64,000 bases of DNA from Emcibacter sp. SYSU 3D8. GTDB taxonomy: Bacteria > Pseudomonadota > Alphaproteobacteria > SMXS01. The notes below the pieces were generated by a model. It had not been told where the DNA came from, ran no database searches, and worked only from the letters and a program-made list of their open reading frames with translations. Below, one piece after another: positions 33,605 to 55,402 of the stretch (position 1 is its first letter; each line of letters opens with the position of its first letter). A program made the position numbers and the translations under genes. The stretch lies in assembly GCF_039655875.1 (NCBI RefSeq), contig NZ_JBBYXK010000002.1, forward strand, positions 124,001-188,000, read 5' to 3'.

Positions 33605-33652
33605 TGGCGCTCCCTAGGGGACTCGAACCCCTGTTTTCGCCGTGAGAGGGCG
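33605..33652. repeat. Left attachment repeat (tRNA-Glu 3' fragment)
   Basis: This 48-base segment is identical to 55355-55402. It covers the tRNA from the anticodon stem through the CCA end, and the left neighbour sequence cannot complete a cloverleaf. It marks the left end of the element, 137 bases before the integrase start. Confidence 0.93.
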
Positions 33653-33676
33653 GCAAAGCGCACTTTCACGAACATA

Positions 33677-33778
33677 TGCGAACATTTCATCCTTCCTGAA
33701 CACCGCAGAAAGCCTTAGATTTACAGTCGCGTGCGTTCGTCGATGTTCGCACAGGGATTTACAGGAAAATTACAGGAC
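33677..33778. promoter_or_regulatory. Inverted and shared repeats between att site and integrase
   Basis: TGCGAACAT (33677-33685) recurs inverted as ATGTTCGCA (33743-33751). A 23-base segment at 33756-33778, built of two TTACAGGA-like units, recurs with one mismatch at 55286-55308 inside the other end of the element. Such pairs at both ends are what integrase arm-type sites look like. They also precede the integrase gene and could regulate it. Confidence 0.55.
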
Positions 33779-33789
33779 GACGCCAATCC

Positions 33790-35115
33790 ATGGCCAGAAC
33801 GGTCCGAAACGCCAAGATCGACAGCCGCTCCGGACGCGCCGGGCTCAAGGTCCGGCACGAGCCCTACTGGACTGTGCTGACGGGTGGCCGGGCGCTCGGC
33901 TACCGGAAGGGCAAGGTGGGCACCTGGGTCGGCCGCTACCGCACCGAGCAGGGGGAGCGCTATCACAAGTCGCTCGGTGTCGCCGACGATGCGCTCGACG
34001 CGAACGGCGAAGACATCCTGTCATATGCTCAGGCGCAGGAGCGAGCGCGCGACTGGTTCAAGGACCTGGAGCGGCGGCTGACTCACGGCATCGCCAAGGA
34101 TCAGGTCTACACCGTCGGCCGGGCTTGTGACGACTACCTCAACTGGTTTGAAACCCACCGGAAGTCGCACATTCAGACGAAGAGCGTCATCGACCAGTTT
34201 ATCCAACCGGAGCTGGGCGATATTGAGGTCAACAAGCTCACCAAGAAGCGGATCGAGGAATGGCAGAGGCAGCGGACCAAGGATAAGGCCAGGGTCCGAA
34301 GCCGCCGCGGGGAGCCGCTCCAGTTCAAATCCAAGGACGATCCGGAAGCCGAGCGGCGCCGGAAAAGCACCGCGAACCGACAGTTGACGGTCCTGAAAGC
34401 CATCCTGAACCGCGCCTTCGATGATGCCAGAGAAACCGGCGTCTCGAGCGATGACGCCTGGCGAAAGGTGAAGCCGTACAAAGATGTTGAGCGCGCCCGT
34501 GTTCGGTGGCTCGCCGACGACGAGTTGTCCCGCTTCCTGTCGGCGGCGGCGAAGGTCGGTCACAACGAGGATCCGGGCCTATTCGAGTTCGCGAAGCTCG
34601 CGACGGGCGCGCTTCTCCTTGGCGCCAGGTATGGCGAGTTGGTCAAGGGCCGGGTGGCCGACTTCGACCCTGCTGCCGGCACGGTGTTCATTCCGGAATC
34701 GAAGTCCGGCAAGGCGCGGCATGTCGTGCTGACCGACGAAGGTCGAGAGTTCTTCACCGCGCTCGTTGCGGGTCGTCCGGGGGATGCATTGCTGTTTCGT
34801 GATGCGAGTGGCAATGCCTGGGGCAAGTCCCAGCAGGCGCGGCCGATCACCGAGCTTTGCGCCAGGGCCAAGATCGCCCCGGCAATAGGCGTCCATGCTC
34901 TTCGTCACACCTACGCCTCGAGGCTGGTTTCACGCGGAGTGCCCTTGATGGTCGTCGCGCAGCAGCTAGGCCACGCCGACACGCGGATGGTCGAGAAGCA
35001 TTATGGGCACCTCGCCCCGAACTACGTCACAGACACGGTGCGCGCCAACTTTGGCGAGTTGGGGCTCAAGCGGCCTGCGGTCGTGACCCTAGGCAGCGGG
35101 AGAACGTCAGCGTGA
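33790..35115 (+). CDS. int: Tyrosine-type site-specific integrase
   Basis: A 441-residue tyrosine recombinase that would insert and excise the element at tRNA-Glu. An arm-binding N-domain and SAM-like core-binding domain (about residues 108-190) precede the catalytic domain. Catalytic residues are seen in GARYGELVKG (Arg), ESKSGKARHV (Lys), HALRHTYASRL (His-x-x-Arg), QQLGHADT (His) and EKHYGHL (Tyr nucleophile). All are intact, so it may be active. Its stop overlaps the next gene's GTG. Confidence 0.95.
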   Translation: MARTVRNAKIDSRSGRAGLKVRHEPYWTVLTGGRALGYRKGKVGTWVGRYRTEQGERYHKSLGVADDALDANGEDILSYAQAQERARDWFKDLERRLTHGIAKDQVYTVGRACDDYLNWFETHRKSHIQTKSVIDQFIQPELGDIEVNKLTKKRIEEWQRQRTKDKARVRSRRGEPLQFKSKDDPEAERRRKSTANRQLTVLKAILNRAFDDARETGVSSDDAWRKVKPYKDVERARVRWLADDELSRFLSAAAKVGHNEDPGLFEFAKLATGALLLGARYGELVKGRVADFDPAAGTVFIPESKSGKARHVVLTDEGREFFTALVAGRPGDALLFRDASGNAWGKSQQARPITELCARAKIAPAIGVHALRHTYASRLVSRGVPLMVVAQQLGHADTRMVEKHYGHLAPNYVTDTVRANFGELGLKRPAVVTLGSGRTSA

Positions 35116-35906
35116 GAGACGGACGCCAGGACAACGTTGTCAACCTCAGGGGGGCCTTTCAGTGGGAGGAACTGGTCGACACGGTTAGCGGTCAAGACGC
35201 GAAAGGCTTGGTGACAACCGACTATGTCGAACGCATATCCGCTGCGATCGCGCGTCGCGCGGGCGTTGAGCCAGCGCGCTCCCTTCAATGGCTGCTAGAC
35301 CGAATTCGCTTCGTGGTCGCCGGCGTTCTCCTTGCTCTGCGAGACGACGAGCGAGCGCCGATTGAAAGTCCAAAGGCAACCAGAATTCTGCTGGACACCT
35401 TGGCCGCAGCGTCTGCCTCTGCGGCGGATGCTGCTCGCGCCATCATCGAATCCCCCAGCGCACAGAGTGCACTTTGGCGCGAACTCGGGGCGGAAATTGC
35501 TGCGGCGCCTGACCATGACCCCATACAGGAAATCGAAGCGATCACCACCAGTCTGGACGTGATGCGGCGTCAAGGTCATTCCCTATCACTGATCGCGAAG
35601 CGTGCGGCGGAAGCAGAAGCGGAAAGGATGCTCTCCTATCGGCTGGAAAAAATATTTCTTGCCGAGCGGGATTTCGCATCCGCCCTCCTGACGCTCATTT
35701 ACAAGGTATATCTGGACAAAATACCGACACTATCAAATGAAGAAACCGCCGATTCTCGAGAGGGTTCATATTACTGGTTCGTGAAATCTATATTGAGCCA
35801 CATCGGGCTCGGACACCTTAGTCATGCTACTCTTAGTAAGAGATTAAGGCTGCATATTCAGAATTTAAAGTCGGGAAACATCCAAGCGGATTTCATCGAG
35901 GATTAG
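35112..35906 (+). CDS. Unknown protein coupled to the integrase
   Basis: A 264-residue protein with no family I recognise. The GTG start at 35112 overlaps the integrase stop as GTGA, so translation is probably coupled. The protein is largely helical and Ala-rich in the first 150 residues, and then contains ERMLSYRLEKIFLAERDF and an aromatic YYWFVKSILSHIGLGHL. The last 250 bases are much richer in A and T than the neighbours, a sign of a different origin. An open frame starting at 34857 inside int is rejected. Confidence 0.6.
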   Translation: MRDGRQDNVVNLRGAFQWEELVDTVSGQDAKGLVTTDYVERISAAIARRAGVEPARSLQWLLDRIRFVVAGVLLALRDDERAPIESPKATRILLDTLAAASASAADAARAIIESPSAQSALWRELGAEIAAAPDHDPIQEIEAITTSLDVMRRQGHSLSLIAKRAAEAEAERMLSYRLEKIFLAERDFASALLTLIYKVYLDKIPTLSNEETADSREGSYYWFVKSILSHIGLGHLSHATLSKRLRLHIQNLKSGNIQADFIED

Positions 35907-35998
35907 GACCAAGAGAGTCCCCACGCGGCCGTGTTTAAGTGTTTGCATTCGCCGAGTTTCTCCCTTGCTCGGCGAGTCACAACATGAGGAACACCGCC

Positions 35999-36190
35999 AT
36001 GAAACTCATTCACGTAAACGCCGTGTGCGGCAGGACCGGGCTGGGGCGCACGAAGGTCTACGAGCTCCTCAATGCCGGCCGGATCAGGTCCGTGAAAATC
36101 GGCGACCGTCGGCTGGTCGAGGAGGGTTCCGTCGACGAGTTCATCCAGTCGCTACTTGACGAACAGAACCCCGGCAGCAAGGCCGCCTAA
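35999..36190 (+). CDS. AlpA/excisionase-like HTH DNA-binding protein
   Basis: A 63-residue winged-HTH protein: VNAVCGRTGLGRTKVYELLN is the helix-turn-helix and VKIGDRRLVEEGSVDEFI the wing and trailing helix. AlpA-type proteins act as excisionases or activators of integrase in satellites such as P4. The ATG at 35999 has AGGA about ten bases upstream, and ATG 35984 is a possible longer start. Confidence 0.75.
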   Translation: MKLIHVNAVCGRTGLGRTKVYELLNAGRIRSVKIGDRRLVEEGSVDEFIQSLLDEQNPGSKAA

Positions 36191-36198
36191 ATAGAAAA

Positions 36199-36227: not shown

Positions 36228-36264
36228 CTTGAATTTCTTCGAATACCTCCACGACGAGGCGACC

Positions 36265-36483: not shown

Positions 36484-36656
36484 CGAAGCACACTGACCAG
36501 CAAATGGGCAAACCGCCAGCCTGGAAGTATCCCACAACTCCGAAGCGCCGGACGCGGAAGTCGATCAAGACGTCGAGCAGATGTTGCCGGCCGAAGCGCA
36601 AGGTCGATGCCGAGCGGCGCCGGAAGCTTGCCGCCATCTGGGCCGGGAGTTGTTGA
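36480..36656 (+). CDS. Short basic hypothetical protein
   Basis: A 58-residue, very basic protein (runs such as TPKRRTRKSIK and KRKVDAERRRKLAA) that could bind nucleic acid. It overlaps its neighbours at both ends (ATGA with the gene before, TGATG with the initiator after), which is the main support for its being real. Confidence 0.45.
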   Translation: MTKHTDQQMGKPPAWKYPTTPKRRTRKSIKTSSRCCRPKRKVDAERRRKLAAIWAGSC

Positions 36657-37570
36657 TGCTCGACGAGGCCGAGGAACGCAAAGGCTATTACCGGCGCAAG
36701 CTGGAATTTGTCGAACGGATGGCGAGAGACCACGAACTGAACGCCGCCGCCTTGCGGGTTGGGATTGCCCTTACGTCTTTTGTAAATTGGTCGCGCGGCT
36801 ACGCTTGGCCCAGCCTGGAACTCCTCGCAGAGCGAACCGGTCTCGCTCGGCGGTCTGTAATAAGGGCCATCGAGTTGCTCGTCAGGCATCGATGGTTCGA
36901 GGTAGAGCGGCCGGACGATGGTCGATACTCGACCAACAATTACTGGCCTTGCCTGGACCGAGAGAACCTTAGGCAGACGGCGGAGGAGGAAGAGAACCCA
37001 GGCGCAGCCAGCAGTGACCAATTCGTCACCTCTGATGGGCCGGCGGCAGGGGTGACCAATTCGTCCGGCAGGGGTGACCAATTCGTCATTTCAGGGGTGA
37101 CCAATTCGTCCGGCAGGGGTGACCAATTCGTCACCCAACCTGTAGAAAGACCTGTTGAAGCTACCTGTTTAAAAGAGCAGGCCGCTGACGCGGCATTTAC
37201 AGGGGATTTTCAGGAAGAAGAACGCAGGCCAAGACCGAAGCCTCCCTCCGCTGAGAGCGGTATTGCCCGAGCAGCGGACAATGTAGTTCTGCTGCACCGA
37301 AACAGCGAAGACGCCGGGGACGATATTAAGCGGGAACTCGACCTGGCCAGTCGACCAGACGCGCGTGAGGCACTTACGGCCTGGGCACAACTCACTGTGG
37401 ACCTCGCCGAGATGGTTCTGGATAGAGCGACGCTGCTGCAACGTCAGATCCTCGCCCAAGCGTATCGAAGCTATGACGAGGGCAGAGTGCGAGAAATCTA
37501 TCACCAAATCTCTTGCGGGATGCCGGATGCGGGCCTCCCGGCCTTCCCCCAACGCAAACCCCTTTTTTGA
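36656..37570 (+). CDS. Replication initiator-like HTH protein containing iterons
   Basis: A 304-residue protein. Residues 8-100 form a winged-HTH of the HTH_36 type (SLELLAERTGLARRSVIRAI) typical of phage and plasmid initiators. Residues about 120-160 are encoded by iteron DNA and read as repeats of VTNSSGRGDQFV. The C-terminal third (ARPDAREALTAW-like region to the end) is helical, perhaps for helicase contact. The layout parallels lambda O: DNA-binding domain, origin-encoded linker, partner domain. The ATG at 36656 follows GGGAG and overlaps the previous stop. Confidence 0.75.
   Translation: MLDEAEERKGYYRRKLEFVERMARDHELNAAALRVGIALTSFVNWSRGYAWPSLELLAERTGLARRSVIRAIELLVRHRWFEVERPDDGRYSTNNYWPCLDRENLRQTAEEEENPGAASSDQFVTSDGPAAGVTNSSGRGDQFVISGVTNSSGRGDQFVTQPVERPVEATCLKEQAADAAFTGDFQEEERRPRPKPPSAESGIARAADNVVLLHRNSEDAGDDIKRELDLASRPDAREALTAWAQLTVDLAEMVLDRATLLQRQILAQAYRSYDEGRVREIYHQISCGMPDAGLPAFPQRKPLF
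37014..37132 (+). repeat. Five iterons inside the initiator gene (candidate origin)
   Basis: GTGACCAATTCGTC occurs exactly at 37014, 37052, 37074, 37097 and 37119. Copies 2-5 are 22-23 bases apart, about two helix turns, and each is preceded by GGG. The unit is nearly a palindrome about AATT. This is the pattern of initiator-binding iterons. Confidence 0.85.
37138..37174 (+). other. Three 12-13-mers next to the iterons (candidate unwinding region)
   Basis: ACCTGT recurs at 37138, 37150 and 37163, each followed by an A/T-rich tail (AGAAAG, TGAAGC, TTAAAA). The spacing of 12 and 13 bases recalls the 13-mers of DNA unwinding elements, placed directly after the last iteron. Confidence 0.6.
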
Positions 37571-37583
37571 GGATCACCCTCAC

Positions 37584-37844
37584 ATGAGCGACGACCAAAC
37601 AAACGACGAGATCCTGATAGGCCACTTCGAAAAGAACCGGGTCGAGGACGTCCGGGCGCGCTTCTGCACCTACCACGGCAGGCGCTATCTGGACATCCGA
37701 GCCTTCGCCACCAGCAATGCCACCGGCGAGCGGGTGCCGACGCGGAAGGGCATCGCGCTCGATCCCGACAAGCTCGAGGAACTGCGCGACTTGGTCGACC
37801 TGGCGATCGAGGCGCGCGACGGAGGCCGACATGCTGCTGGATGA
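37584..37844 (+). CDS. PC4/p15-like single-stranded DNA-binding protein
   Basis: An 86-residue protein whose segment FEKNRVEDVRARFCTYHGRR, then YLDIRAFATSNATGERVPTRKGIAL and a final helix (DKLEELRDLVDLAIEA), matches the PC4/p15 fold of bacterial YdbC-like proteins. These dimers bind single-stranded DNA. Placed right after the initiator and origin, it may act in replication or recombination of the element. The start at ATG 37584 fits the usual family N-terminus. Confidence 0.75.
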   Translation: MSDDQTNDEILIGHFEKNRVEDVRARFCTYHGRRYLDIRAFATSNATGERVPTRKGIALDPDKLEELRDLVDLAIEARDGGRHAAG

Positions 37845-39017: not shown

Positions 39018-39914
39018 ATGACGAGAAGCCTGTTTGCAGAGAGAGACGGCGGGCCAGCTGTGGCCCCTATTTCGCCGCGGCGGGAACTCGGGGCATACGA
39101 GGCGCTGTGGCTTGAGGACGGCGCAAGTTTCAAGACCATTGCTGAGCGCTTCCAGCGCGATCCCTCTGCGCTTCCCGGCGACTTCGTCAGCCACCAAGAG
39201 GCAGATGCCCGCGCTGGCGAGGTGCTGGATATCCTGAAGACGGCTGGTGTGCATCAGTTCGGCGTCAGGATACATCACGCTGGCGACTACCCGGCCAAGC
39301 TCCGCGACGCGAAATATCCTGTCGAGATGCTGTACTTTCAAGGCACCTGGGAACTCTCGGAGACCCGTTGTGTCGCGGTGGTAGGGAGCCGGGAGGCAAC
39401 AGACGAGGGTAAGCGCCGGGCAGCGCGCCTGGCAGCGGAATTGGTCAGGAAAGACTTCACAGTGGTCTCTGGCCTTGCGACCGGGATTGATACCGCCGCC
39501 CACCAGGCCGCGCTTGAGCAGGGTGGCCGCACCATCGCGGTAATCGGTACGCCGTTGGGCACCTACTATCCGCGGCAAAACCGCGAACTCCAAGACCGGA
39601 TAGCGAATGACTTCCTCCTGATCTCACAGGTGCCGGTTCTGCGGTATAAGGCCCAGGCGGTGCCCCAGAACAGGCTGTTCTTCCCTGAGCGTAACGTCAC
39701 GATGAGCGCGCTAACCGAGGCCACGATCATCGTCGAGGCCGGCAACACCTCCGGGACGTTGACCCAGGCGCGGGCGGCGCTTCACCAGGGCCGGAAACTA
39801 TTCATCCTCGATTCCTGCTTCGAGCGGACGGATATCACCTGGCCGGCGCGTTTCGAGAAGGAAGGTGCTATACGCGTTCGGACCCCAGACGACATCTGGG
39901 CTGCCCTTGGCTGA
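39018..39914 (+). CDS. DprA-like protein (ShosA-like, candidate antitoxin)
   Basis: A 298-residue protein with a DprA/Smf Rossmann domain: VAVVGSREATDEGKRRAARL, VSGLATGIDTAAHQAAL, IGTPLGTYYPRQN and a late NTSGTLTQARAAL. Canonical DprA loads RecA on incoming DNA. In the ShosTA system a DprA-domain protein (ShosA) neutralises a phosphoribosyltransferase toxin (ShosT). The next gene here is a phosphoribosyltransferase and the two overlap, so I read this as ShosTA-like. The C-terminal winged helix of chromosomal DprA is absent. GTGAGGC precedes the ATG. Confidence 0.8.
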   Translation: MTRSLFAERDGGPAVAPISPRRELGAYEALWLEDGASFKTIAERFQRDPSALPGDFVSHQEADARAGEVLDILKTAGVHQFGVRIHHAGDYPAKLRDAKYPVEMLYFQGTWELSETRCVAVVGSREATDEGKRRAARLAAELVRKDFTVVSGLATGIDTAAHQAALEQGGRTIAVIGTPLGTYYPRQNRELQDRIANDFLLISQVPVLRYKAQAVPQNRLFFPERNVTMSALTEATIIVEAGNTSGTLTQARAALHQGRKLFILDSCFERTDITWPARFEKEGAIRVRTPDDIWAALG

Positions 39915-40572
39915 TCCGCTTCGCCTCAGCCTGATCGACGACGGCAACCGGGGCGACCACTCGCACCTGACCGCGCAGGATACCTGTTACTACCTCCGCG
40001 AATACACGAGCCACGCCGGCTTCGCGGCAGGCGCGACAAACAACCTGATCTCCAACCTGAAGAAGAAGCCCAGCGAGAGCCACAGACCAGGATTCCATTA
40101 CAAGGCCCGCGCAGTCGCCGAATGTACCCGCGATCTGGCCTCGGCGTTGAACCCCGAGTGGCTCGACAATGCGACGCTGGTGCCGGTCCCCAGCTCCAAG
40201 GCGCGATCCCATCCCGATTTCGACGACAGGGTGACGCGGATTTGCAGGGGCATCCGGCCGGGTAACATCGATGTGCGGGAATTGGTCGTTCAAGATGCGT
40301 CGATGATTGCCTCCCATGAAGCCGGTTTCCAGCGGCATACTATCCAGGACCTGCTTGCGGTCTACTCGATCGATGAGAGCCTGGTGAACCCTGAGCCAAA
40401 GGCAATCGGAATCGTCGATGACGTGCTCACCGCTGGCACGCATTACCGCGCCATGCACACCGTCCTCAGCAACCGCTTCCCCAGCGTCTCGATTGTCGGA
40501 GTGTTCATCGCAAGACGGATTTTTCCGCCGCAGGTCACGCTCCAAGACCTGCTGGCACGACAGAAGAAGTAG
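39865..40572 (+). CDS. Phosphoribosyltransferase-domain protein (ShosT-like, candidate toxin)
   Basis: A 235-residue protein with a type I PRTase fold. The PRPP loop is AIGIVDDVLTAGTHYRAMHT and a ComF-like VPVPSSKARSHPDFDDRV precedes it. N-terminal residues 20-70 are family specific (TAQDTCYYLREYTSH). Paired and overlapping with the DprA-like gene, it resembles ShosT, whose expression is toxic. The start is uncertain: GTG 39865 lies close behind GAGAAGGA, while TTG 39907 would shorten it by 14 residues and keep a small overlap. Confidence 0.78.
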   Translation: MLYAFGPQTTSGLPLADPLRLSLIDDGNRGDHSHLTAQDTCYYLREYTSHAGFAAGATNNLISNLKKKPSESHRPGFHYKARAVAECTRDLASALNPEWLDNATLVPVPSSKARSHPDFDDRVTRICRGIRPGNIDVRELVVQDASMIASHEAGFQRHTIQDLLAVYSIDESLVNPEPKAIGIVDDVLTAGTHYRAMHTVLSNRFPSVSIVGVFIARRIFPPQVTLQDLLARQKK

Positions 40573-42885: not shown

Positions 42886-43557
42886 TTAGTCGTGGAAATG
42901 GCCTCGCGGCGGCTCGACTGGCTCCTTAGCCACCAGCAGCTCGAGTTCTTGGTTCCGGACGTTGCCGACCAGCTTGTTCGCCGGCCGGATCTGTATAGGC
43001 CCTTGGTAGGGCTTCAGCAGCGAGACATCCGGCGTGGCCAGCCATTGGGCAGCCTGTTCGTGCTCGAGGATCACCGGCATGCGGCCGTGGATGTGCCGGG
43101 TCTGGTCACAGGCTTCTGTGATGACGATGCTGCACGATGGCCTCCCATATCGTCCAGGAGGGGCGTACAGGCCCGCGAAGCTCAGCACCTCGCCATCGGG
43201 CCGGGTGAAGTGCCAAGGCTGCTTGTCCCCCTTCTGCCCGGACCACTCGTACCAGCCCGACGCCGGCACGACGCAGCGCCACTTCTCAAGCGACGGCTTC
43301 CAGAGCTTGCTCGTCTCAATGGTGTCGGTCCTGGTGTTGAAGGTCGCGGCCTTCAGCGGCTCAGCCGACCACGGCGGCACCAAGCCCCAGCGCGCCATCT
43401 GGCCGACATTACCCTCGGCGCCGGCGGTGACCATCAGGACATCCTGCGTCGGCACGACATTGTAGGCCGGCTCGAGGTTGGTCTACGGCGCGGAGATCAG
43501 GCTGTAGTAGGCGTGGACCTCGTTCCAAATGTAGCACCGCGTCATCCGGCCGCACAT
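42886..43557 (-). pseudogene. SOS-response-associated peptidase (SRAP/HMCES) with an in-frame amber codon
   Basis: SRAP proteins cross-link to abasic sites in single-stranded DNA through the cysteine at position 2. The frame opens MCGRMTRCYIWNEVHAYYSL, then reads TAG as codon 25 (43483-43485), then continues TNLEPAYNVVPTQDVLM to the usual end. The rest is intact: ASGWYEWSG, HGRMPVILE and a full C-terminus. With the amber, the catalytic Cys2 is separated from the body. A restart inside the frame would lack the catalytic residue. A sequencing error or amber suppression are alternatives. Confidence 0.85.
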
Positions 43558-45715: not shown

Positions 45716-45793
45716 GATGGCCTCCTCGGAAGGTTGTCAGGGTTAGGCCCGGCGTGGAGGTTGCCGCCTCTCACCGGGCCGACTACTGCACAT

Positions 45794-45860
45794 TTGCCTT
45801 GCGCTGTAGTTACCTATATAATAGTTGATGTACATGATAACATCAACGGAATTATAGGTA
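45794..45860 (+). promoter_or_regulatory. Promoter with nested operators for the XRE regulator
   Basis: The -35 TTGCCT (45794-45799), a 17-base spacer and the perfect -10 TATAAT (45817-45822) read toward the XRE gene. Two 8-bp perfect inverted repeats are nested around a common region: TACCTATA (45811) with TATAGGTA (45853), and GTTGATGT (45824) with ACATCAAC (45840). The outer left arm overlaps the -10, so bound repressor would block the promoter. Confidence 0.8.
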
Positions 45861-45864
45861 AGAT

Positions 45865-46098
45865 ATGACGCTTTTCGATGCACGGCTCTGCAAGGCCGCC
45901 CGTACGCTGCTCGACTGGTCCCGAGAAGACCTCGCCAAAGCCTCAGGTGTCGGAATCAGCACCGTTTCTGAATTTGAGCGCGGCGACCGCGCAACGTATG
46001 AGGCCAGCAAGGCCCGGATGAAGTCTGCACTCGAAGCTGCAGGCGTCGTGTTCCTCACAATCGGCGATATCGACGGGCTGGGCGTGCGTCGGCGTTGA
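45865..46098 (+). CDS. XRE family transcriptional regulator
   Basis: A 77-residue single-domain regulator with a Cro/C1-type HTH (SREDLAKASGVGISTVSEFE). A C-terminal stretch VFLTIGDIDGLGV is typical of small phage and island XRE proteins. The ATG sits five bases after a TATAGGTA operator arm, with AGGT as ribosome site. It probably represses its own promoter and that of the divergent gene pair. Confidence 0.85.
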   Translation: MTLFDARLCKAARTLLDWSREDLAKASGVGISTVSEFERGDRATYEASKARMKSALEAAGVVFLTIGDIDGLGVRRR

Positions 46099-46103: not shown

Positions 46104-47279
46104 CTATAGGGGTTCGATGGCGGCAAAGTGCCCACCGCGCCGAACGGACTTGACCGCACCCATTCCCTCGAGCGCGGCAACGGGGTCCACATCCGCCAGG
46201 CGATCGAAGTCGATGCGGCACCACGTCTCTCGGTCCACCCGGACAGCCAGGATGTAGACATCGACCACAGCGCCGGTTGCCGGGTCAGGTCGCTGCACAT
46301 AGGCGGATGCTGTCAGCCGGTCTAGCGTCGCCATGGTGGCGAAGGCCTCGCCGATGACGCGGAACAAGGTGCCGTGCGCGAGGCGCGCGAAGTCCCGCCT
46401 GATCTGGGCGTCACTGCGTTCCTTGAACGTCACCTTGAACCCCCGGCCGGCAACAGACGCGATCTTGCGGGGTATGTCGTCTTCGTCGGGGAGGTCGACG
46501 TCGAGCTGCAGCGATCTCCCGTCTTCGGAGAGGTCGAAGTCGACGAGCGTCTCCTTTGGCCAGGCGATTTGCCCCAGCGCAGCCGTGAACAGCTTCTCCA
46601 TGGCGTCGGGATCGCCGCGCTCAAGCCGGCCCAGCAGTGCGAGCCAGTCGGCCGCATCCTCGGCGTGCTTCTTCAATCTTCCCTCCCACGTCGTCAGAGC
46701 TTCGGAATGCTGGCGCTCGGCAATGAAATTGGAGGCTTCGATATCGGCGCGTCGGCCCAGGAGCTTGTCGAACCAGGTGATGCCTCGGAGAACCGGCGCG
46801 GCGGGGCGCGGCTCGCCGAACGCATCGAGTTGACGGAACCGTGGCAGGCGGGGGTCGGGTGTTGAAAGGTGGATATCCACACAGCAGGTGTAATCGGCGT
46901 TGAGTTCGTCGACCTCGGCCTGAAGCCACTCTGAAAGCTTGTCACCCTGCTGCTCCCTAGCGGCCTTCACCAGCCGCGCAGGTGCTTCGGCGCCGTCGGC
47001 AGTCAGAAACCTCACCGAACCGTCGTCATGCAGTTCAAGACGCATCGGCACACTGGTCGTTTGGGCAGCGGGCGAACGCGAGCGCCGCGAAGATGGCGAG
47101 TCTAGCCGCTGGCGATAGGATAGGCCTGTGCCAGGGATGCCAGCGTTTCCGTAGATACCCTGCCGCCCCAATGTCACCGATGCGCCACGCGGTCCAGCCG
47201 ACAAGCTGGCACCTCGCATCCCGAAGTTTAGACGGACGCCAGGCATGAGGCGGACGCTGCGCCGGAACCTAAGCCCCAT
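46104..47279 (-). CDS. DUF4236 domain protein
   Basis: A 391-residue protein. Residues 1-55 are a DUF4236 domain: MGLRFRRSVRLMPGVRLNFG, then SLSAGPRGASVTLGRQGIY and GTGLSYR. The rest is a soluble body of unknown function, with an acidic beta-rich segment (DFDLSEDGRSLQLDVDLPDE). The role of the family is unknown. The start at 47279 follows GGAGGCTGTC; a much longer open frame upstream is rejected. It is divergent from the nuclease gene. Confidence 0.78.
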   Translation of the reverse strand: MGLRFRRSVRLMPGVRLNFGMRGASLSAGPRGASVTLGRQGIYGNAGIPGTGLSYRQRLDSPSSRRSRSPAAQTTSVPMRLELHDDGSVRFLTADGAEAPARLVKAAREQQGDKLSEWLQAEVDELNADYTCCVDIHLSTPDPRLPRFRQLDAFGEPRPAAPVLRGITWFDKLLGRRADIEASNFIAERQHSEALTTWEGRLKKHAEDAADWLALLGRLERGDPDAMEKLFTAALGQIAWPKETLVDFDLSEDGRSLQLDVDLPDEDDIPRKIASVAGRGFKVTFKERSDAQIRRDFARLAHGTLFRVIGEAFATMATLDRLTASAYVQRPDPATGAVVDVYILAVRVDRETWCRIDFDRLADVDPVAALEGMGAVKSVRRGGHFAAIEPL

Positions 47280-47436: not shown

Positions 47437-47925
47437 ATGAGGTGGATATGGGCGGCTGCTCTGATGGTCCTGTTTTCGTCGCCCGCGGCATTGGCGGACG
47501 TCCGTGTCCATGACGGCGACACCATCACGCTCGATGGCACCAAGATCCGCATTGCCGCTATCGACGCACCGGAATTGGACCAGAAGTGCGCCACCGAGTC
47601 CGGCCGGTGCATGCCCTGCGGTGCCGTCTCCAAGGGCTATCTGTTGAGCCTGTTGGCAAAGGGCGCACCGGTCTGTGTCCGGATCGACACCGACCGTTAC
47701 GGCCGCGCCGTCGCCACGTGCACGGTCAATGGCCGGGATATTGGCGAGGCCATGATCCGGAGCGGCAATGCCGTGGCTTACACCCGGTATCTGGTGGGCG
47801 ACCAGGCGAGGCGCTATCCGGCGGCCGAAGCCGCGTCTAAGAAGGGCCGTCGCGGAATCTGGGCCGGCAGGTACGACATGCCGGAGCGGTGGCGCCGAGG
47901 CGAACGCATTAAGTGCGAGAAGTAG
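47437..47925 (+). CDS. Exported thermonuclease (staphylococcal nuclease-like)
   Basis: A 162-residue protein with a signal peptide (MRWIWAAALMVLFSSPAALA) and an SNase domain. The catalytic strand VHDGDTITLDGTKIRIAAID has the Asp and Arg residues of the calcium and phosphate site, then APEL and a later DRYGRAVATC with a second Arg. It would degrade DNA or RNA outside the cytoplasm. GGAGGG precedes the ATG; an open frame to 47245 overlaps the divergent gene. Confidence 0.87.
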   Translation: MRWIWAAALMVLFSSPAALADVRVHDGDTITLDGTKIRIAAIDAPELDQKCATESGRCMPCGAVSKGYLLSLLAKGAPVCVRIDTDRYGRAVATCTVNGRDIGEAMIRSGNAVAYTRYLVGDQARRYPAAEAASKKGRRGIWAGRYDMPERWRRGERIKCEK

Positions 47926-48421: not shown

Positions 48422-48892
48422 CTACTGCCGGCCGTCGTCGGCGCGCTTCATCGACTTCATCACGTCAAGATGAGCCTGGCCGATGCTGATATTGATGCTG
48501 GGCCCGCCGCGCTCCCCGAAGTTGGCCGGATCGAGCATGCCGGCATACCACTTCCTGGTTTCGATCCGGAGCTTGTCCCGCTGAACCTTCACCGTGTTGG
48601 GCCGCGTCGTCCCGTCGTCGACATAGCTGTCCTTGTCCTCGGCGTCGGCGATGGCCTGGCACTCGTCGGCAAGCGCCGCGGCACGGAGCCGTTTGGCTTC
48701 GGCGAACCGCTCCTTGTTCTCGGGTGAGTTCAGGAACCGCTGGATCGAACTCTTGCCGACATGGTGCGCGTCGGCGAGCTGCTGAAAGGTCAGGCCACCG
48801 GCCCACTCGGTGAGTAGGGCGTCGACACCGACGGCCTCGAGGCGGGCCATGGCCGAGCCGGATTCCGTTGCCGGGCTGAGGTCTGTGTTCAA
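48422..48892 (-). CDS. Phage terminase small subunit-like protein
   Basis: A 156-residue protein. An N-terminal HTH, LTFQQLADAHHVGKSSIQRF, and the stretch YVDDGTTRPNTVKVQRDKLR, then RKWYAGMLDPANFGER, match small terminase subunits that recognise packaging sites. The start is TTG at 48892, chosen because GGAGG lies seven bases upstream and the codon overlaps the previous stop as TTGA. No large terminase subunit follows. Confidence 0.75.
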   Translation of the reverse strand: MNTDLSPATESGSAMARLEAVGVDALLTEWAGGLTFQQLADAHHVGKSSIQRFLNSPENKERFAEAKRLRAAALADECQAIADAEDKDSYVDDGTTRPNTVKVQRDKLRIETRKWYAGMLDPANFGERGGPSINISIGQAHLDVMKSMKRADDGRQ

Positions 48893-51800
48893 GGTATTAC
48901 CTCCATGAGCCGACGCTGGGCGTCATTGAAACGGGCGGCAGCAGCTTCGGGATCGGCGCTCGGGAATGGAGCCTTCGCGATGGGGAGGGGCGTGCTGGTG
49001 TAATTCTTGATCCCCAGCATGTGGCGCTGGGCGTCGGTCAACTTGGTAGCATCGACCGGCACCGCTCCATCCGGCATCCCGGCGGCGCGGCGCCGGCCGA
49101 CGCTGTAGTCCGTGGGATTCAGCACGGACTGTTCGCGGTCCTCCACAGCCCCCAGCGCGGCTCCGGCTGTCCAGGCATTGGGCCTGTCGGGCTCGATGCC
49201 AACGCCAAACTTGAAAGTCTTCGCCGCCAGCTTTCTCAGCGTCAACGGATCCGGGTTCTGCATCGTAGCGGCCAGATCCTTGGCAACCTCGGGGTCGAAC
49301 AGCGCCTTCTGCCAGAGGTCGTCCATCTGCCTCTTGGTCCGACCACGAACGAAGTTCATCGCGCCTTCCATCGCCGGATAGATCTTTCCGACGCGGCCGG
49401 ACTGTATGGCGTAGAGGCGTGTGCCGATCTGCGGCAGCTTCATGCCCAACGCATCCTCAGCCGCCCGGAACGGCACCTGTTGCGGGGCGGCGCCGCCGGG
49501 CTTGGGCAGTCGGTCGGCCATGGCGCGGGCGTCAGCGATGAACCTGGCATTCCTCAGATGCTCCGCCGAGAAGATCAGCCCAAGGGCCTTCTGGTTCTTG
49601 TCCAGGAAGGTGATTGTGCTTCTCGGATCGTCGAAAGGGATACGCTGCCATACCGCCGCCCGGAGGCCGTCCAACGCGGCCTTGTCGTCACGGACACGGC
49701 TCCGCAGCTTCATCGCCAAGCCCGGGTTCCGGACGGCCTCGTCGATGAGGGAGTCGGCAGACTTGGCCCCAGCCTCGACGCTCGCCAGCTTACGCTCCAG
49801 GACGTTCCGCTCGACCACACGCGCCCTGTCCGCAAGGGTCTGCTGCCGCGCCAGGAGGAGCCGGTCGGTACTTCCCACATCCTCGACGAGAGACCGCAGG
49901 TAGGGCATTTCAGAGAGCATGGAATCATGCTGGCGAACCCAAGCCGAATATCTGGCCGGGTCGATCACGCCATCCCGCACCGCGGCCTTGCGCAGGCTGT
50001 CCAGCGCCACACTTTCCAGCGCTTCGACACCTCTGACATACTCCGAACTCGCCGGATCCATGCCCTGCAGCGCCTTCGTGAATGAACGCAAGCCAGTGAC
50101 GTTGTTCGGTTTCCACAGATCGGAGGCCATGGCCTCATCGCTGAGCTTGCGGAAGCCTTCATTGTCGCGGGCGCCAAAGCTGCGCACGTCGGGCTGGCGG
50201 AAGGTCTCGATGACCTGATCTCTGTAGTCCTTCCGGAACGCGTTCCACCGCTCGGCAAGGTTCTGGTCACTCGTCCGCAACTCGGTGTTGACGATCATGT
50301 CGTCGAAATCGCGCAGTAGCCGCGAGAGGGTCGATTCCTGCATTCGGTCGGCCGGATTGCTCGACTTCTGGCTCACGTTCAGATCGTCGACGATTCGCTC
50401 CCGCAGGGCCTTCACGTCCTGGAACCGGACGGGCTGGCGAGCGGCGTCTTCCGCGCCATATCGCACGATTGCGTCCAACACCTTGGGACGATAGCTGGGG
50501 TTATCGAAGGTGCGCGGCGCATAGGTGTCGGCGACGCGCTGCTGGAAGCCCCGGAAATCGAGGGTGACATCGGCCGTGTTCAGCCCCTCGGCGATGGCCC
50601 GCTGGTTGAAGTGGTCGCGAACCGCCCGGCGCGTATCGTTTAGCGCGGCGCGCATGTTCTGGCCGGCCTGCACCAGATCGACGGACGGCACGTTACCGGC
50701 CAGCACTTCCCGTTCCGCCCGCTTCTGCGCCTGCTCCCGCTGCAGCTTGTCGGCGATGGCCTTGCTGCGAACCTGGGCGCGAGCGGCAACGGCTTCGGAG
50801 GACAGAGACGACACCGGGGCCTGCGTTTCGGCAAAGGTATCGATCGCCCGGTCCTGGGCGTCTCGCCGCTTCCTGGCGGCCTCGAGAGTGGGGCCGGTGA
50901 TGCGCTCGTCCAGATCCTTCTGGGCAGCCATGAGGGCAGGGGAGCCGGTACGCTCGGCGAGGGACAGCTCCATGCGGTCAGGACTGCCAGAGCGTGCCGC
51001 AGCTTCGTTCACTGCCCTCTCTACTTCACCGGAACGTGCAACCTCTTGCTGATAGCGCGGAAGCTCCTCGCCCAGCGTCTGGCCGACCATCTCTCTGGCG
51101 CGGGATGTCGCGGCTTTATCCGAGACGGTCGGGGCCAGAGTGCGTGCCAGTCGGCCGGCCATGAAGGTCGGCGAGAAGAACGCCGCAGCGGACAGGCCGG
51201 TGGGCGTGGCAATGGCGCCGATCATCTCTCCGGTGTCGCCGCCGACCTCCTGCCCAATACCACCACCAAGGCCGGAGACGGCCGAGAGCCCGGTTTCAAC
51301 AGCGGCGGTCCTGACGGGCGCCTGCATGGTGCCCTTGAGCATGTTCTGGCCGACCTGGCCCATCACCGTGGCGGCATCCACCGGTGCTGTGGCGTAGGAC
51401 GCCGGCTTGGCAAGCCCCATGACCTGCGGAGCGGCGACGAAGGGGAGGGAAGCACCGATGTATTCACCCGTCTTGGCCGCGACACGTTCGGCCGCGTCCC
51501 GGGGCTCAGGGGCATCGCCCAGCCGGTCGCCGATACTGCTCAGCGCGCGGTCGATCTGACGCCCGCCGGCGGACTCCAGGACAGGCTCAAGCGCCTGGCT
51601 GACCATGGGGCGCATATCGACATTGCCTTGCAGGCCCTTACCCGAAGTCATGTCCTCTAGCGCGCCCTCAGGGTCGCCAATGATGCGCCCCTGCGGGGCG
51701 ATGAAGCTGTTGACATAACTATTGGCCAGCGCCACCGGAATGCCGCCAATAGCGTCTTTCGCATGCCCGAGGCCGCGCCAGATGCCCGCGGGAACCTGCT

Positions 51801-51996
51801 GGGCAACGCTGAGGACGTCGGAGCCTTCCTGCGGTACGCGCTCCGGATTGGTGATCTGGACCTCGACCTTCTGGTAGAAGTCGGCCCGCGTCATGCCGGT
51901 CTGGGCGTAGTGCTTCCGGTACAGCGCATCCGCCAACTCCTGGTCGGGAACGTCGGCGTATGCAGGGTTCTGCTGCTTGAAGTTCTTGATGTTCAT
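48889..51996 (-). CDS. Large virion protein, likely internal/ejection protein
   Basis: A 1035-residue protein. The N-terminal 50 residues (FKQQNPAYADVPDQELADAL) are a motif found at the start of many phage internal virion proteins. A Gly/Ala-rich hydrophobic part follows (about 190-290). Long charged helices occupy residues 360-470 and 690-780. It is in the terminase-to-virion run with ATGA overlaps both sides. The ejection role is inferred from architecture and context. Confidence 0.68.
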   Translation of the reverse strand: MNIKNFKQQNPAYADVPDQELADALYRKHYAQTGMTRADFYQKVEVQITNPERVPQEGSDVLSVAQQVPAGIWRGLGHAKDAIGGIPVALANSYVNSFIAPQGRIIGDPEGALEDMTSGKGLQGNVDMRPMVSQALEPVLESAGGRQIDRALSSIGDRLGDAPEPRDAAERVAAKTGEYIGASLPFVAAPQVMGLAKPASYATAPVDAATVMGQVGQNMLKGTMQAPVRTAAVETGLSAVSGLGGGIGQEVGGDTGEMIGAIATPTGLSAAAFFSPTFMAGRLARTLAPTVSDKAATSRAREMVGQTLGEELPRYQQEVARSGEVERAVNEAAARSGSPDRMELSLAERTGSPALMAAQKDLDERITGPTLEAARKRRDAQDRAIDTFAETQAPVSSLSSEAVAARAQVRSKAIADKLQREQAQKRAEREVLAGNVPSVDLVQAGQNMRAALNDTRRAVRDHFNQRAIAEGLNTADVTLDFRGFQQRVADTYAPRTFDNPSYRPKVLDAIVRYGAEDAARQPVRFQDVKALRERIVDDLNVSQKSSNPADRMQESTLSRLLRDFDDMIVNTELRTSDQNLAERWNAFRKDYRDQVIETFRQPDVRSFGARDNEGFRKLSDEAMASDLWKPNNVTGLRSFTKALQGMDPASSEYVRGVEALESVALDSLRKAAVRDGVIDPARYSAWVRQHDSMLSEMPYLRSLVEDVGSTDRLLLARQQTLADRARVVERNVLERKLASVEAGAKSADSLIDEAVRNPGLAMKLRSRVRDDKAALDGLRAAVWQRIPFDDPRSTITFLDKNQKALGLIFSAEHLRNARFIADARAMADRLPKPGGAAPQQVPFRAAEDALGMKLPQIGTRLYAIQSGRVGKIYPAMEGAMNFVRGRTKRQMDDLWQKALFDPEVAKDLAATMQNPDPLTLRKLAAKTFKFGVGIEPDRPNAWTAGAALGAVEDREQSVLNPTDYSVGRRRAAGMPDGAVPVDATKLTDAQRHMLGIKNYTSTPLPIAKAPFPSADPEAAAARFNDAQRRLMEVIP

Positions 51997-53441
51997 TGGA
52001 ACAGACCCAGCGGGTCGTTTGTAGGCACGGTGCCTCCGTTACCGAGGCTCATGGGATCGCCGGACTGTGGCGCCATGACGGCTCCCCGGGGGTCGACGGC
52101 GAGTGGCCTGCTGCGAATCTGCTGCAACCACTGATAGATTTCGACCAGCCGCTGCCGGGCCTGCTCCGTTGAGGTGAACGGACCCCCACTCGGCAACAGG
52201 CTCTCGATGCGCCTCACGTCCGCTTCCGTGGTTCTTTTGTCGCTTTTCAGCGCGGCGATCAGATCCTGCCTCAAGGTCGCGATGTCGACGCCGACCTGGT
52301 CGGATTCCTTCTGGTAGCCACCGACGAAGGGCGCGCCGACCGCGTTCCATGCCCGGCCCGCCGCCGTCTTGACGCCGATGCCCTGCTGCCAGACGTCGCT
52401 GGCAAGCATGTCCCTGACCCGCGACGAAGCCAGATCGATCTGGTTGTTCTCCTCCGCTCGCTCCTGAGCCAGCTTCGGCGGGACATGACCTTGGGCAGCG
52501 GGCGACGGTGCGGCCTCGCTCTGGGCCTGCCCAGCCTGTCCACCGCCGTCAGGTACCCCGGGGACTGTCGTGCCGGGCGCGGTCTGGGCGTTCGGTCCCG
52601 CCAGATTGAGCTCATATGGCCGGCCAGCGCTGTCGACGCCGACCTCGATGCCGCCGTAGGCAAGGCCCTGGGCACGCTGAGGATCGACGCCCTGCTGGAT
52701 CAGGTAGTTGTAGCGCTGCTCCGCGACCGTGGGCTGGCGGGGGTGTCGGGGCTCGACGTGGGCGGGCTGGCCGTAGGCATCCGACGGCCGGGCCCAGACC
52801 ACCTGGCCGTCGCGGACGATCTTGACGGGCGTGCCTGCCTCAGGGTCCGGGGCCTTGACGCCGCCGATGCCAATGGTCTGCGTCGGGTCCAGCCGGTCCG
52901 CGGCGACGCGCATCTGGCGGCCCGATGCCGGGTCATAGGCGTCCTGGAACTGCCAGTCGGGCGCGATGCCTGCGGTGTCGACTTGACTGGCTCGCATCCA
53001 GTTCAGCATCTCCGGCGACGGCCGGCCTCCTGCCGGGTTGTAGCCGAGAAGGGTCTGCTGTGCCGTGTTCAGCGGCGACAAGCCGCCATCAGGCGAGAGA
53101 ACGCTGCCTGGCGTTACCGGCGCGGCGGCGTCGGCCGCATTGCCCATGGCCTGCTGGTCCATGCCGGTAGCTGCGCCACCACCTTGTCCCATGATGCTGT
53201 TCGGCGGCATGTAGCCGCTCTGCTGCACCAGCGCCTTCTGGTTCTCGTTGAGCGCGTCCCAGCCCGCGACGGCGAGTTGCCGCGCCGCGCGCTGTGCTTC
53301 CGCGTCCCGCTGGCTCGCGAATTTGTCGATGAGCCGTTCCCGGTCGTTCGACACACCGCCTTGCAGCGCCGCACCGATATCCCGGAACCGGGCTTGGCGA
53401 AGCAGGCGCCGCTGGTCTTCGTTGAGCGTTTCCAAGTCCAT
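51993..53441 (-). CDS. Virion-associated hypothetical protein
   Basis: A 482-residue protein rich in Gln, Ala, Gly and Pro. It starts MDLETLNEDQRRLLRQARF and repeats a similar NENQKALVQQSGY motif near residue 66. The C-terminal 100 residues are helical (GVDIATLRQDLIAALKSDKR). It lies between two virion-type genes, one base after the previous stop and overlapping the next start (ATGA). The function is not known. Confidence 0.62.
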   Translation of the reverse strand: MDLETLNEDQRRLLRQARFRDIGAALQGGVSNDRERLIDKFASQRDAEAQRAARQLAVAGWDALNENQKALVQQSGYMPPNSIMGQGGGAATGMDQQAMGNAADAAAPVTPGSVLSPDGGLSPLNTAQQTLLGYNPAGGRPSPEMLNWMRASQVDTAGIAPDWQFQDAYDPASGRQMRVAADRLDPTQTIGIGGVKAPDPEAGTPVKIVRDGQVVWARPSDAYGQPAHVEPRHPRQPTVAEQRYNYLIQQGVDPQRAQGLAYGGIEVGVDSAGRPYELNLAGPNAQTAPGTTVPGVPDGGGQAGQAQSEAAPSPAAQGHVPPKLAQERAEENNQIDLASSRVRDMLASDVWQQGIGVKTAAGRAWNAVGAPFVGGYQKESDQVGVDIATLRQDLIAALKSDKRTTEADVRRIESLLPSGGPFTSTEQARQRLVEIYQWLQQIRSRPLAVDPRGAVMAPQSGDPMSLGNGGTVPTNDPLGLFQ

Positions 53442-53442
53442 G

Positions 53443-54945
53443 TCAGTGCCCCACCCTGTTCATGAGTTGCCGGATCAGGAATTTCAGGACCGGCTTGTCG
53501 GCGATCCATGCGGCGAAGCGTTCGCCGTGCCGGAGATAGAGATCGCGGAACCATGCCGGCGCAGTGCTGAACAGCCAGGCGCGGACACGGAGCCATTCCG
53601 GATTGTCGGCGCCGTAGACCTCGCGGGCGACCCAGCAGCCGCCGAGCATGCCCATGAACTTGCCGGCGTTGTCCATGGCCATGCCGTCGTTCTTGAGCCG
53701 CATCGCCTCGACTTCGAACAGGCCCTGCGTCGGGCGGGTCTCAGTCTGCACGAGCTGGCCGGTCGCACTCTGCAGGATGCCGAGTTGCGCGGCCGGGTGA
53801 CCGATCTTCCGCAGGAACTCGAGGTATTTCTCATCTTCCATTTTCTGCTGGATGCTCTGGGTGAGGGAGCCGGCCTGCACCGCTGCCGTACCGGCGTCGA
53901 GCTTGATCCGGCTCTGGTCCGCTCCGAAATCCCCGAGCAGCCCAGCCGCCGTGACGCCCTGTTGGTTCGCGGTCAGCCCCGCCGCCTGGTTCACCTTCAG
54001 CGCCTCAAGTCCAGACGCCGCATTGCCCTGCGACGCGGCATTGGCCGCCGCCATGTTGGCCGCCGCCGCCGCCTGTTCCATCTCGGCGTTGCGGGCGCCG
54101 GTGTTGAACAACACGCTCTGGTTGGTCTTCGCGGCGTCCTGCGAATAACCGGCCTCGGCCAATGCCGCAGCCTGCGCCGCAGCCTGATTGCGGGCCTTCG
54201 CTTCCTGGTCCATGCCCAGCAGGGAGACATCGGCGCCCTGGTTGGTCTGGTCCGCCGACAACTTCCGGTTCGCGTCCTGCATGATCAGCCCGGAGGCGGT
54301 GTCGTAGCCCCTGTTGTAGAGATCGGAAACAGTCGTGCCCAGCGTGCGGTTGAACATGTCGTTGGTCTGGGCGTCGACCACCGCCTGACGGGAGCCACCG
54401 AACGCGCCGGCCTGCACTGCCCTGGCATTGTCGACGCCCCGCTGCTGTTCCCGCTGGAAGGCGAGATTGTCCATCACGGACCCGACCACGTTCTGCAGAT
54501 AGGGGTTCATGTAGGCCCCCATGTCGTAGTCCAGGAACGTGTCGGCGCCGACCTGGCCCACCAGTGAGCGATCTACGCCGCTGACGTCCGCGACCGGGGC
54601 AACCGTGGCGCCGAAGATCCCCTGCACCGGAGCGATGGAACTGGCGTTCATGGTGGCGGCCGTCATGGTCGGCGCCGTGATCTGAAGAGGCGAATAGGAC
54701 GCCTTCTGCTTCGCCAGATCGATGGCGGCGTTGATCGCGCTGGCGCCCGCCGCTGGGGCGGAATTGATGGTCGAGATGCCCCCCGTGATCGTGGAATTGA
54801 CCGGCGCGACCCTCGTTTCCTCATAGGGTGTAAACGGAATGGCGGCCGTCTTCTTGGCCTCGTCCAGCATGCCCAGCAACGCCTTCTGCGCGTATTTGGG
54901 TGTGCCCCCGCCCTTCTTGCCTCCGAGAAATCCGAGGAGGCCCAT
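53443..54945 (-). CDS. Phage virion protein with CWVAREVYG C-terminal module
   Basis: A 500-residue protein. The N-terminal part (GFLGGKKGGGTPKYAQKALL) and Ala/Gln-rich middle resemble podovirus head or ejection proteins. The last 75 residues, GGCWVAREVYGADNPEWLRV and following, form a module I recall from many phage tail and virion proteins of marine and soil phages. Its start overlaps the stop of a ribbon-helix-helix gene (TAATG). Confidence 0.7.
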   Translation of the reverse strand: MGLLGFLGGKKGGGTPKYAQKALLGMLDEAKKTAAIPFTPYEETRVAPVNSTITGGISTINSAPAAGASAINAAIDLAKQKASYSPLQITAPTMTAATMNASSIAPVQGIFGATVAPVADVSGVDRSLVGQVGADTFLDYDMGAYMNPYLQNVVGSVMDNLAFQREQQRGVDNARAVQAGAFGGSRQAVVDAQTNDMFNRTLGTTVSDLYNRGYDTASGLIMQDANRKLSADQTNQGADVSLLGMDQEAKARNQAAAQAAALAEAGYSQDAAKTNQSVLFNTGARNAEMEQAAAAANMAAANAASQGNAASGLEALKVNQAAGLTANQQGVTAAGLLGDFGADQSRIKLDAGTAAVQAGSLTQSIQQKMEDEKYLEFLRKIGHPAAQLGILQSATGQLVQTETRPTQGLFEVEAMRLKNDGMAMDNAGKFMGMLGGCWVAREVYGADNPEWLRVRAWLFSTAPAWFRDLYLRHGERFAAWIADKPVLKFLIRQLMNRVGH

Positions 54946-55103
54946 TATGCGGCCTCCTTCTCGACGTGGCGGCGCAGAGCGTCACGGACAAAGTCGGACA
55001 GCTTCCGGTCCTGACGGGCCGCGGCTTCCTTTAGACGGGTCTCAAGGCTGGCCGGCAGCATGACATGGAGATGCCGGTCGAACGATGCGGGCAAAACGGG
55101 CAT
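54945..55103 (-). CDS. Small ribbon-helix-helix (Arc/MetJ-like) protein
   Basis: A 52-residue protein reading MPVLPASFDRHLHVMLPASL, then KEAAARQDRKLSDFVRDALR, the strand plus two helices of an RHH DNA-binding domain. AGGAGG lies seven bases before the ATG at 55103. Its stop overlaps the start of the virion gene (TAATG). As the first gene of that run it may be its regulator. Confidence 0.75.
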   Translation of the reverse strand: MPVLPASFDRHLHVMLPASLETRLKEAAARQDRKLSDFVRDALRRHVEKEAA

Positions 55104-55150
55104 GTGCGCCTCCTGAACAACAGAGGTTCAGGATAGCATCGAATAGCCAT

Positions 55151-55351
55151 TAACCCATTGAAAATATTGAATTATACGCAGACGTTCGCTGGCAGTCGCC
55201 TAGGCTCTCACCTGTCCGGCGCCGGCGGCGAAATGGATTCGGAAGAGCCAATCGGGAACGCTCTATCGCCCGACATGCCACCACAGATTTACAGGAGAAT
55301 TACAGGACAGGAGGGTTTTGCGGCCAAAAGTATGACCTAACCCATTGAAAA
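55151..55351. repeat. Repeats at the right end of the element
   Basis: TAACCCATTGAAAA occurs at 55151-55164 and exactly again at 55338-55351, the second copy ending just before the att repeat. Between them, 55286-55308 repeats the 23-base segment found at 33756-33778 by the integrase. These are candidates for integrase or excisionase arm sites. I see no gene here. Confidence 0.6.
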
Positions 55352-55354
55352 GGT

Positions 55355-55402
55355 TGGCGCTCCCTAGGGGACTCGAACCCCTGTTTTCGCCGTGAGAGGG
55401 CG
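55355..55402. repeat. Right attachment repeat (3' part of tRNA-Glu)
   Basis: Identical to 33605-33652 over 48 bases; the copies first differ at 55403 (A here, G on the left). It is the tRNA 3' end from the anticodon stem to CCA. Confidence 0.93.

Follow-up and report, generated by a model that had tools for sequence, protein, structure and literature searches.

We analyzed a 64,000-nt stretch of the genome of Emcibacter sp. SYSU 3D8 (G000; the whole stretch is called the window, and unlabelled coordinates refer to it) that contains a 21.75-kb insertion at a tRNA-Glu gene. An exact 48-bp repeat is found at 33605-33652 (left attachment site, attL) and at 55355-55402 (attR), with the two copies 21,750 bp apart. 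The right copy is the 3' end of a tRNA-Glu(CTC) gene that is whole (55355-55430, minus strand), and the left copy duplicates that end. When the right flank was searched in seven genomes of the genus, own included, four of the six other congeners (G001, G002, G003 and G005) had tRNA-Glu with one 48-bp copy, no second copy listed and no element. In G003 a relative of the window gene at 33079-33432 sits 251 bp before the tRNA, so that both flanks are present; G001 has a 33% match to the 38480 gene approximately 9 kb left of the tRNA. These results demonstrate that the insertion is a mobile element integrated in tRNA-Glu, as had been claimed from the perfect repeat and intact tRNA in an original prediction made from the sequence alone, which proposed a satellite-like element. 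Such site-specific integration between att repeats is one of the features that mark phage-inducible chromosomal islands (PICIs). Genes of the left half are on the plus strand, in the order integrase, AlpA-like regulator, O-like initiator, PC4 protein, two weakly similar proteins, ShosA and ShosT. The right half (genes right of 41773) is mostly on the minus strand and holds an Excalibur protein, SRAP, small genes, an HTH_3 regulator, a DUF4236 protein, a staphylococcal-nuclease-like protein (SNase) and an operon composed of a ribbon-helix-helix (RHH) regulator, three genes that we call ejA, ejB and ejC, and a small terminase subunit (TerS).

To assign these genes, 29 open reading frames (ORFs), including every gene of the element kept by the predictor, were scanned against Pfam, and 19 of these were also scanned against PHROGs. 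The left half begins with a tyrosine integrase of 441 aa (33790-35115, plus; PF00589, 5.5e-21), followed by a 68-aa AlpA-like excisionase/regulator (35984-36190, plus) that matched HTH_17 above the cut-off (5.3e-8), Phage_AlpA under the cut-off (0.004) and phrog_66 (4.7e-5); an AlpA-type regulator is the type expected in PICIs of Gram-negative bacteria. The O-like replication initiator (329 aa; 36581-37570, plus) matched phage initiator families by profile (HTH_36, 2.6e-10; phrog_270, 3.9e-9). A repeat search revealed five iteron-like 22-bp repeats inside the initiator gene (37009-37135, plus), a cluster that is the probable origin of replication. An 86-aa PC4-type protein (37584-37844, plus; PF02229, 1.1e-9) comes next, and further right lies a ShosTA pair, consisting of a DprA-like ShosA (39018-39914, plus; PADLOC 6.1e-98; PF02481, 6.9e-58) and an adjacent ShosT (39907-40572, plus; PADLOC 6.2e-47), whose genes overlap. 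ShosT had no Pfam match, and hence no phosphoribosyltransferase domain by Pfam. Taken together with the TerS described below, the Pfam, PHROGs and PADLOC matches uphold the predicted inventory of integrase, AlpA-like regulator, initiator with repeats, ShosTA and TerS.

The operon at the right end starts approximately 250 bp from attR and reads toward the center of the element. Its frames are open, and neighboring genes overlap or are separated by gaps of 1 and 38 bp. At its head is an Arc-like RHH regulator (54945-55103, minus; 56B_RHH at 3e-5, under the cut-off; phrog_6506 at 0.002). It is followed on the same strand by ejA (500 aa; 53443-54945), ejB (482 aa; 51993-53441), ejC (1035 aa; 48889-51996) and a 142-aa TerS of the Sf6 type (48422-48850; PF20901, Sf6_terminase, 3.1e-14; phrog_1482, 2.4e-15), for which a comparison with structures gave a match named Terminase small subunit, Gene 1 protein at 0.0018. 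Relatives of TerS in phages were found as local matches in eight Cellulophaga records.

Relatives of ejA, a podovirus virion protein of the tail-tip/ejection module, were found in nine phage records and at 37 loci of IMG/VR. Local matches reached 29% in Sinorhizobium phage phiM5 and 49% in Puniceispirillum phage HMO-2011. The phiM5 relative has been detected in virions and is followed by three putative internal virion proteins that were detected in particles; in both phages at least two large proteins come after the region of ejA homology at the operon end, as in the element. Unlike the element, phiM5 and HMO-2011 have complete heads and tails. In G003, of the same genus, an ejA relative (47%) lies behind genes whose relatives match tail and structural genes of phiM5, and another contig of this genome carries a TerS (31% to the element TerS), a large terminase subunit (TerL) and a portal; the two contigs are probably one prophage split by contig ends, with genes reaching the end of C2. 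A relative of a podovirus tail gene lies upstream at 34 of the 37 IMG/VR loci (the exceptions being L085, L096 and L098). None of the 37 matched the element TerS, initiator, AlpA or PC4 at 1e-4; a weak match to the integrase (25-26%) was present in two of them (L075 and L107).

The two other large proteins were placed by comparison with a podovirus-type prophage in G018, in which PHROGs recognized TerS, TerL, portal, capsid and connector. The last gene of its late operon is an ejC relative (33% over 784 aa). Just before it, in the position of ejB, is a gene with a weak match to ejB (65 aa, E 0.008), and the gene preceding that one matched an internal virion protein family at 6e-4. In a phage contig (L099), tail is followed by ejA, then by a protein that occupies the ejB position, then by an ejC-like protein and portal; the ejC-like protein matches ejC over 30 N-terminal aa (47%). 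Because of these comparisons with phiM5, G003, G018, the IMG/VR loci and L099, we interpret ejA-ejB-ejC as the end of a podovirus morphogenesis operon, with homology that is strong for ejA and ejC and weak for ejB, complemented by gene order, and its products are probably DNA-delivery proteins. The three large virion-type proteins of the original prediction thus have podovirus counterparts.

Structure-based comparisons gave a further indication for ejA. Its AlphaFold model was poor (pLDDT 61, pTM 0.28) and all helical, and Foldseek with this model found no PDB match at E 0.001. Among predicted viral proteins the same search returned 20, of which three carry the name of an intramolecular chaperone domain, and for this reason ejA may belong to the tail tip and not to the virion interior. 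Matches of the ejA family profile in PDB to exonuclease VII and myelin regulatory factor (4e-4) and to a long tail fibre subunit (0.07) were not used. For ejC, a search of PDB gave nothing under 0.3. Profile comparisons detected no relationship between ejC and HMO-2011 gp22 or phiM5 gp31 or between ejB and HMO-2011 gp23, and ejA gave a negative result with the G018 ejA. IMG/VR yielded no relatives when scanned with ejA, ejC, TerS and the initiator as single proteins or with an ejC alignment, and tblastn of ejC and ejB against phages gave no match. Separately, an N-terminal stretch of ejC (43% over residues 1-59) was seen at L011 (G104:C5:269436-269597) within a 3997-aa open frame that may encode a large polyvalent protein.

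As the original prediction had noted, the element has no recognizable large terminase, portal, capsid or tail tube: none of these families was found among the 29 ORFs by Pfam or the 19 by PHROGs, and tblastn of 27 podovirus proteins on the element returned only relatives of ejA-ejB-ejC, with no remnants of TerL, portal or capsid. A protease family was likewise absent from the same Pfam and PHROGs scans, such that the own capsid genes that define capsid-forming PICIs (cfPICIs) were not found, and Pfam scans of the element ORFs found no lytic gene. What is present at the level of sequence is integration in tRNA-Glu, an initiator of its own with repeats, a TerS unaccompanied by TerL, virion genes of the delivery type with no recognizable head or tail genes, and ShosTA. 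We favor, as the reading with the better part of the probability, a PICI-like phage satellite of podoviruses that acquired the ejA-ejB-ejC module. That the element is instead a complete small phage with head genes too divergent for recognition is highly improbable. Such a phage would fit with the element having virion proteins of its own and several uncharacterized proteins, but the latter, outside ejA-ejC and with the exception of the DUF4236 protein, are smaller than 300 aa, and the scans found no TerL family. Among the genes of phages, TerL is generally the most conserved.

A 12.2-kb sister element in the same tRNA-Glu of the sixth congener, G006, bears on whether the insertion could be the remainder of a prophage. 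This relative carries at tRNA-Glu the integrase-AlpA-initiator order for which the original prediction had proposed a search. The elements share the integrase (46%), AlpA (37% over 41 aa), PC4 (55% over 64 aa) and the 108-aa gene of the right half (58% over 60 aa). The G006 initiator is of the same type (HTH_36, phrog_270) and takes the same place in the gene order; it aligned at 26% and gave no tblastn match. Its gene contains approximately four imperfect copies, by eye, of another repeat, with no 10-mer present three times. The sister element further holds a CI-like repressor, a DUF5681 gene and what looks by eye like a HigBA pair, its antitoxin recognized by PHROGs. Scans of 14 of its 26 predicted proteins against PHROGs revealed no family of head, TerL or tail, the 27 podovirus proteins gave no tblastn match on it, and tblastn of two of its proteins against phages was empty. 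The G006 host also has a prophage (L141, G006:C2:12001-32000) with TerL, portal and capsid-type genes by eye, in which the terminase match contains two stops. Two genes are common to this prophage and the sister element (68% and 51%), which suggests exchange between them.

Could the insertion be a decayed podovirus prophage in tRNA-Glu, from which TerL, portal, capsid, tail and lysis genes were deleted while the early region, the ejection module and TerS were left? We consider this unlikely, yet the strongest of the alternatives. Its attraction is that ejA-ejB-ejC and TerS are phage late genes, and that a podovirus-like prophage with relatives of ejA and TerS exists in the same genus (G003). 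It is countered by the sister element at the same site, which has a similar core and no recognized head or tail genes, and by the lack of TerL, portal or capsid remnants in the tblastn search. Gene order argues in the same direction: in G018 and G003 TerS precedes TerL, so that after a simple deletion TerS would be expected in front of ejA, whereas it lies behind ejC. A T7-like gene order would soften this argument. In addition, a tblastn search of 50,697 phage records at 0.001 left the initiator, PC4 and the 200-aa protein without a match, and at 1e-10 the integrase hit just two Synechococcus phages (33% along roughly half of the protein). The original prediction held that close relatives carrying full head and tail operons at these flanks would point to a deleted prophage; none was seen in the genus, where four sites are empty, G006 has its small element and G004 gave only a short flank match. 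Of the two explanations set against each other in that prediction, the satellite therefore stands as the better one, with the reservation that its virion module and mixed transcription misfit the PICI description and that a stop in SRAP would be compatible with partial decay, as detailed below.

We also asked where else this integrase occurs. A GTDB-wide scan with the integrase pair gave nine loci. Four were counted as att-bounded (L059, L060, which is the G006 element, L064 and L065); the remaining five (L058, L061, L062, L063 and L066) were dropped, as no element with AlpA, initiator and a tRNA-Glu boundary was seen. The three elements besides G006 lie at tRNA-Glu and are bounded by repeats of 46-54 bp: L059 is 6.0 kb long, L064, from Acidocella aquatica, is 8.6 kb and carries a DUF927 protein and DUF5681, and L065, from a metagenome-assembled genome (MAG) of the Bdellovibrionales, is 10.3 kb and carries an initiator and a TerS (Terminase_2, 2.6e-41). 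DUF5681 presumably acts as TerS. Among 372 genomes of the class, the integrase was found at 1e-50 in eight, own included, on varied stretches. These comprise stretches that resemble mixed islands by eye in G156 and G360, contig ends or integrases without a recognizable element in G025, G068 (two) and G086, and a satellite-like stretch in G061 that is interrupted by contig ends. A candidate TerL in G059, recognized by eye, was not confirmed. The idea that this integrase marks satellites was dropped, given the island-like look of G156 and G360 and the portal and capsid genes adjoining it in an IMG/VR stretch, L067. The island-like stretches, together with SNase, Excalibur, DUF4236 and ShosTA genes that resemble cargo, are compatible with a non-phage genomic island, that is, an integrative element with phage and defense cargo that moves, if at all, by other means. 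This explanation seems improbable to us: the initiator with repeats, AlpA and TerS are arranged in the manner of satellites, and no relaxase, mobilization or conjugation family was found among the 29 element ORFs by Pfam.

Comparison with described satellites shows both shared and differing features. According to the accessible sections of PMC6092414, PICIs of Gram-negative bacteria have in common with the element an integrase, an AlpA-type regulator, an initiator with repeats, an attachment site of their own, a TerS (in some PICIs) and no head or TerL genes. In what we could consult of the PICI literature, PICI attachment sites are never used by prophages; here no prophage was seen at tRNA-Glu in the genus, in which G004 gave only a short match, and a related integrase adjoins HK97-type portal and capsid genes in L067. 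EcCIMP1 is, in the portion of PMC11773190 available to us, a PICI with AlpA regulators, as here, mobilized by phage vB_EcoP_Kapi1, a helper taken to be a podovirus from its name; its main text does not contain the terms ejection, injection or virion protein, and no such module is described in that portion. The cfPICIs, as presented in the available part of PMC11389934, likewise bring some virion proteins of their own; they bring capsid genes and take tails, whereas the element has ejA-ejC and no capsid gene was found in it. Literature on satellites together with ejection proteins, internal virion proteins or podoviruses, covered at the level of the titles and abstract openings listed and outside subscription papers, contained no satellite with such a module. 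In one paper that did contain a term of this kind, it stood in the reference list only.

Several observations weigh against a PICI-like satellite. Set beside the accessible descriptions of PICIs, the element carries three virion-type proteins; its transcription is mixed, whereas that of Gram-negative PICIs is unidirectional; and its 21.75 kb compare with approximately 15 kb, a size stated for Gram-positive PICIs, the sister elements being 6.0-12.2 kb. The PICI origin, in the same descriptions, lies just behind the initiator gene and has two iteron sets around an AT-rich stretch, while the element has a single cluster of five repeats within the gene. The combination of TerS with ejA-ejC was not found in any second element. 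Of 21 further proteins from L059, L064 and L065, two matched phrog_2229 (head maturation protease), which speaks against a lack of head genes in the element concerned; judging by their mutual similarity these are probably two L064 proteins of 106-121 aa, which is short for a protease. The remaining features would suit a prophage relic. The accessory SRAP gene (42886-43557, minus) begins with MCGR and has an in-frame stop approximately 24 codons in, compatible with partial decay; the stop severs the start region from a YedK-like open part (42886-43455, minus; PF02586, 1.9e-44). There are two gene-poor gaps of 868 and 972 bp. In L067 (4330-9290) the related integrase adjoins capsid and portal genes of the HK97 type and, by eye, a protease-like gene, on a stretch at a contig end that is either a phage or a capsid-forming satellite.

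The search for a resident helper also weighs against a satellite. The own genome had no match to the PF03237 terminase, for which six of 14 control genomes were positive, and none to the phrog_1216 portal, which was found in G003 and in 0 of 14 control genomes; the terminase and portal families searched were these and phrog_2. A search of the own genome with the G003 portal was empty, without a positive control. A phrog_2 match in the own genome (1.9e-8; an 871-aa predicted protein) was not counted as a helper, the surrounding stretch not being phage-like. Because the family searches were empty and the phrog_2 match is doubtful, we conclude that no helper of the PF03237/phrog_1216 type is resident. 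Some genomes do carry satellites without any possible helper, according to the accessible part of PMC11389934.

Under the satellite reading, a podovirus that enters the cell or is induced from a prophage would trigger AlpA, as helper-triggered AlpA activation has been shown for EcCICFT073 (PMC6092414, in the sections available). Int would then excise the element, and Rep would initiate replication at the repeats that its gene contains. The element TerS could pair with the helper TerL and steer element DNA into helper heads, and ejA-ejB-ejC might be built into the particles in place of, or beside, their helper counterparts, which would put delivery of the satellite genome under the element's own control. 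The module might make entry more efficient, alter the choice of hosts or damage the helper, while ShosTA would guard the cell against rival phages. This specific scheme, in which a podovirus satellite supplies its own ejection proteins and TerS and relies on the helper for head, portal, TerL and tail, is offered tentatively and has less than an even chance. If true, the satellite would decide both which genome is packed and how it enters, and could poison helper particles or open hosts closed to the helper. Known satellites steer packaging and capsid size or bring their own capsids; TerS plus ejA-ejB-ejC without a shell would add genome delivery to the steps under satellite control, and would make the exchange of delivery proteins between helper and satellite particles testable. 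The small elements at tRNA-Glu, which occur in Alphaproteobacteria and in one Bdellovibrionales MAG, offer a starting point.

Base composition provided a hint about the history of the module. GC content at third codon positions (GC3) is 0.80-0.86 in ejA-ejC and TerS, near the host mean of 0.85 (31 genes), versus 0.62 in the initiator and 0.67 in the HTH_3 gene. For this reason the late module may have arrived separately from the initiator region. The AlpA (0.84) and PC4 (0.82) genes do not show this contrast with the late module.

Further genes lie in the right half. Two small genes of 108 and 200 aa (44787-45715, minus) are divergent from the HTH_3 regulator (45865-46098, plus; Pfam). Relatives of the 108-aa gene were found among the 372 class genomes in G213, on a stretch that looks prophage-like by eye, and in G332, where, near tRNA-Ser (L134, 1435-2940), the relative (36%) is accompanied by a relative of the HTH_3 gene (42%) in the same divergent layout as at 44787-46098. 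The DUF4236 protein (46104-47279, minus; start near 47279) had, in a 313-aa version, no match by tblastn against phages. The SNase (47464-47925, plus) matched PF00565 at 7.6e-15. Outside the element, to its left, the window contains a lone contractile-sheath gene (30451-31614, minus), with matches to a tail sheath protein (2e-54), Afp2 (1e-43) and Pvc2 (2e-43), flanked by an enzyme gene and a glycosyltransferase gene, both by eye. By eye, similar genes also occur in G002 and G003, in the flank left of tRNA-Glu.

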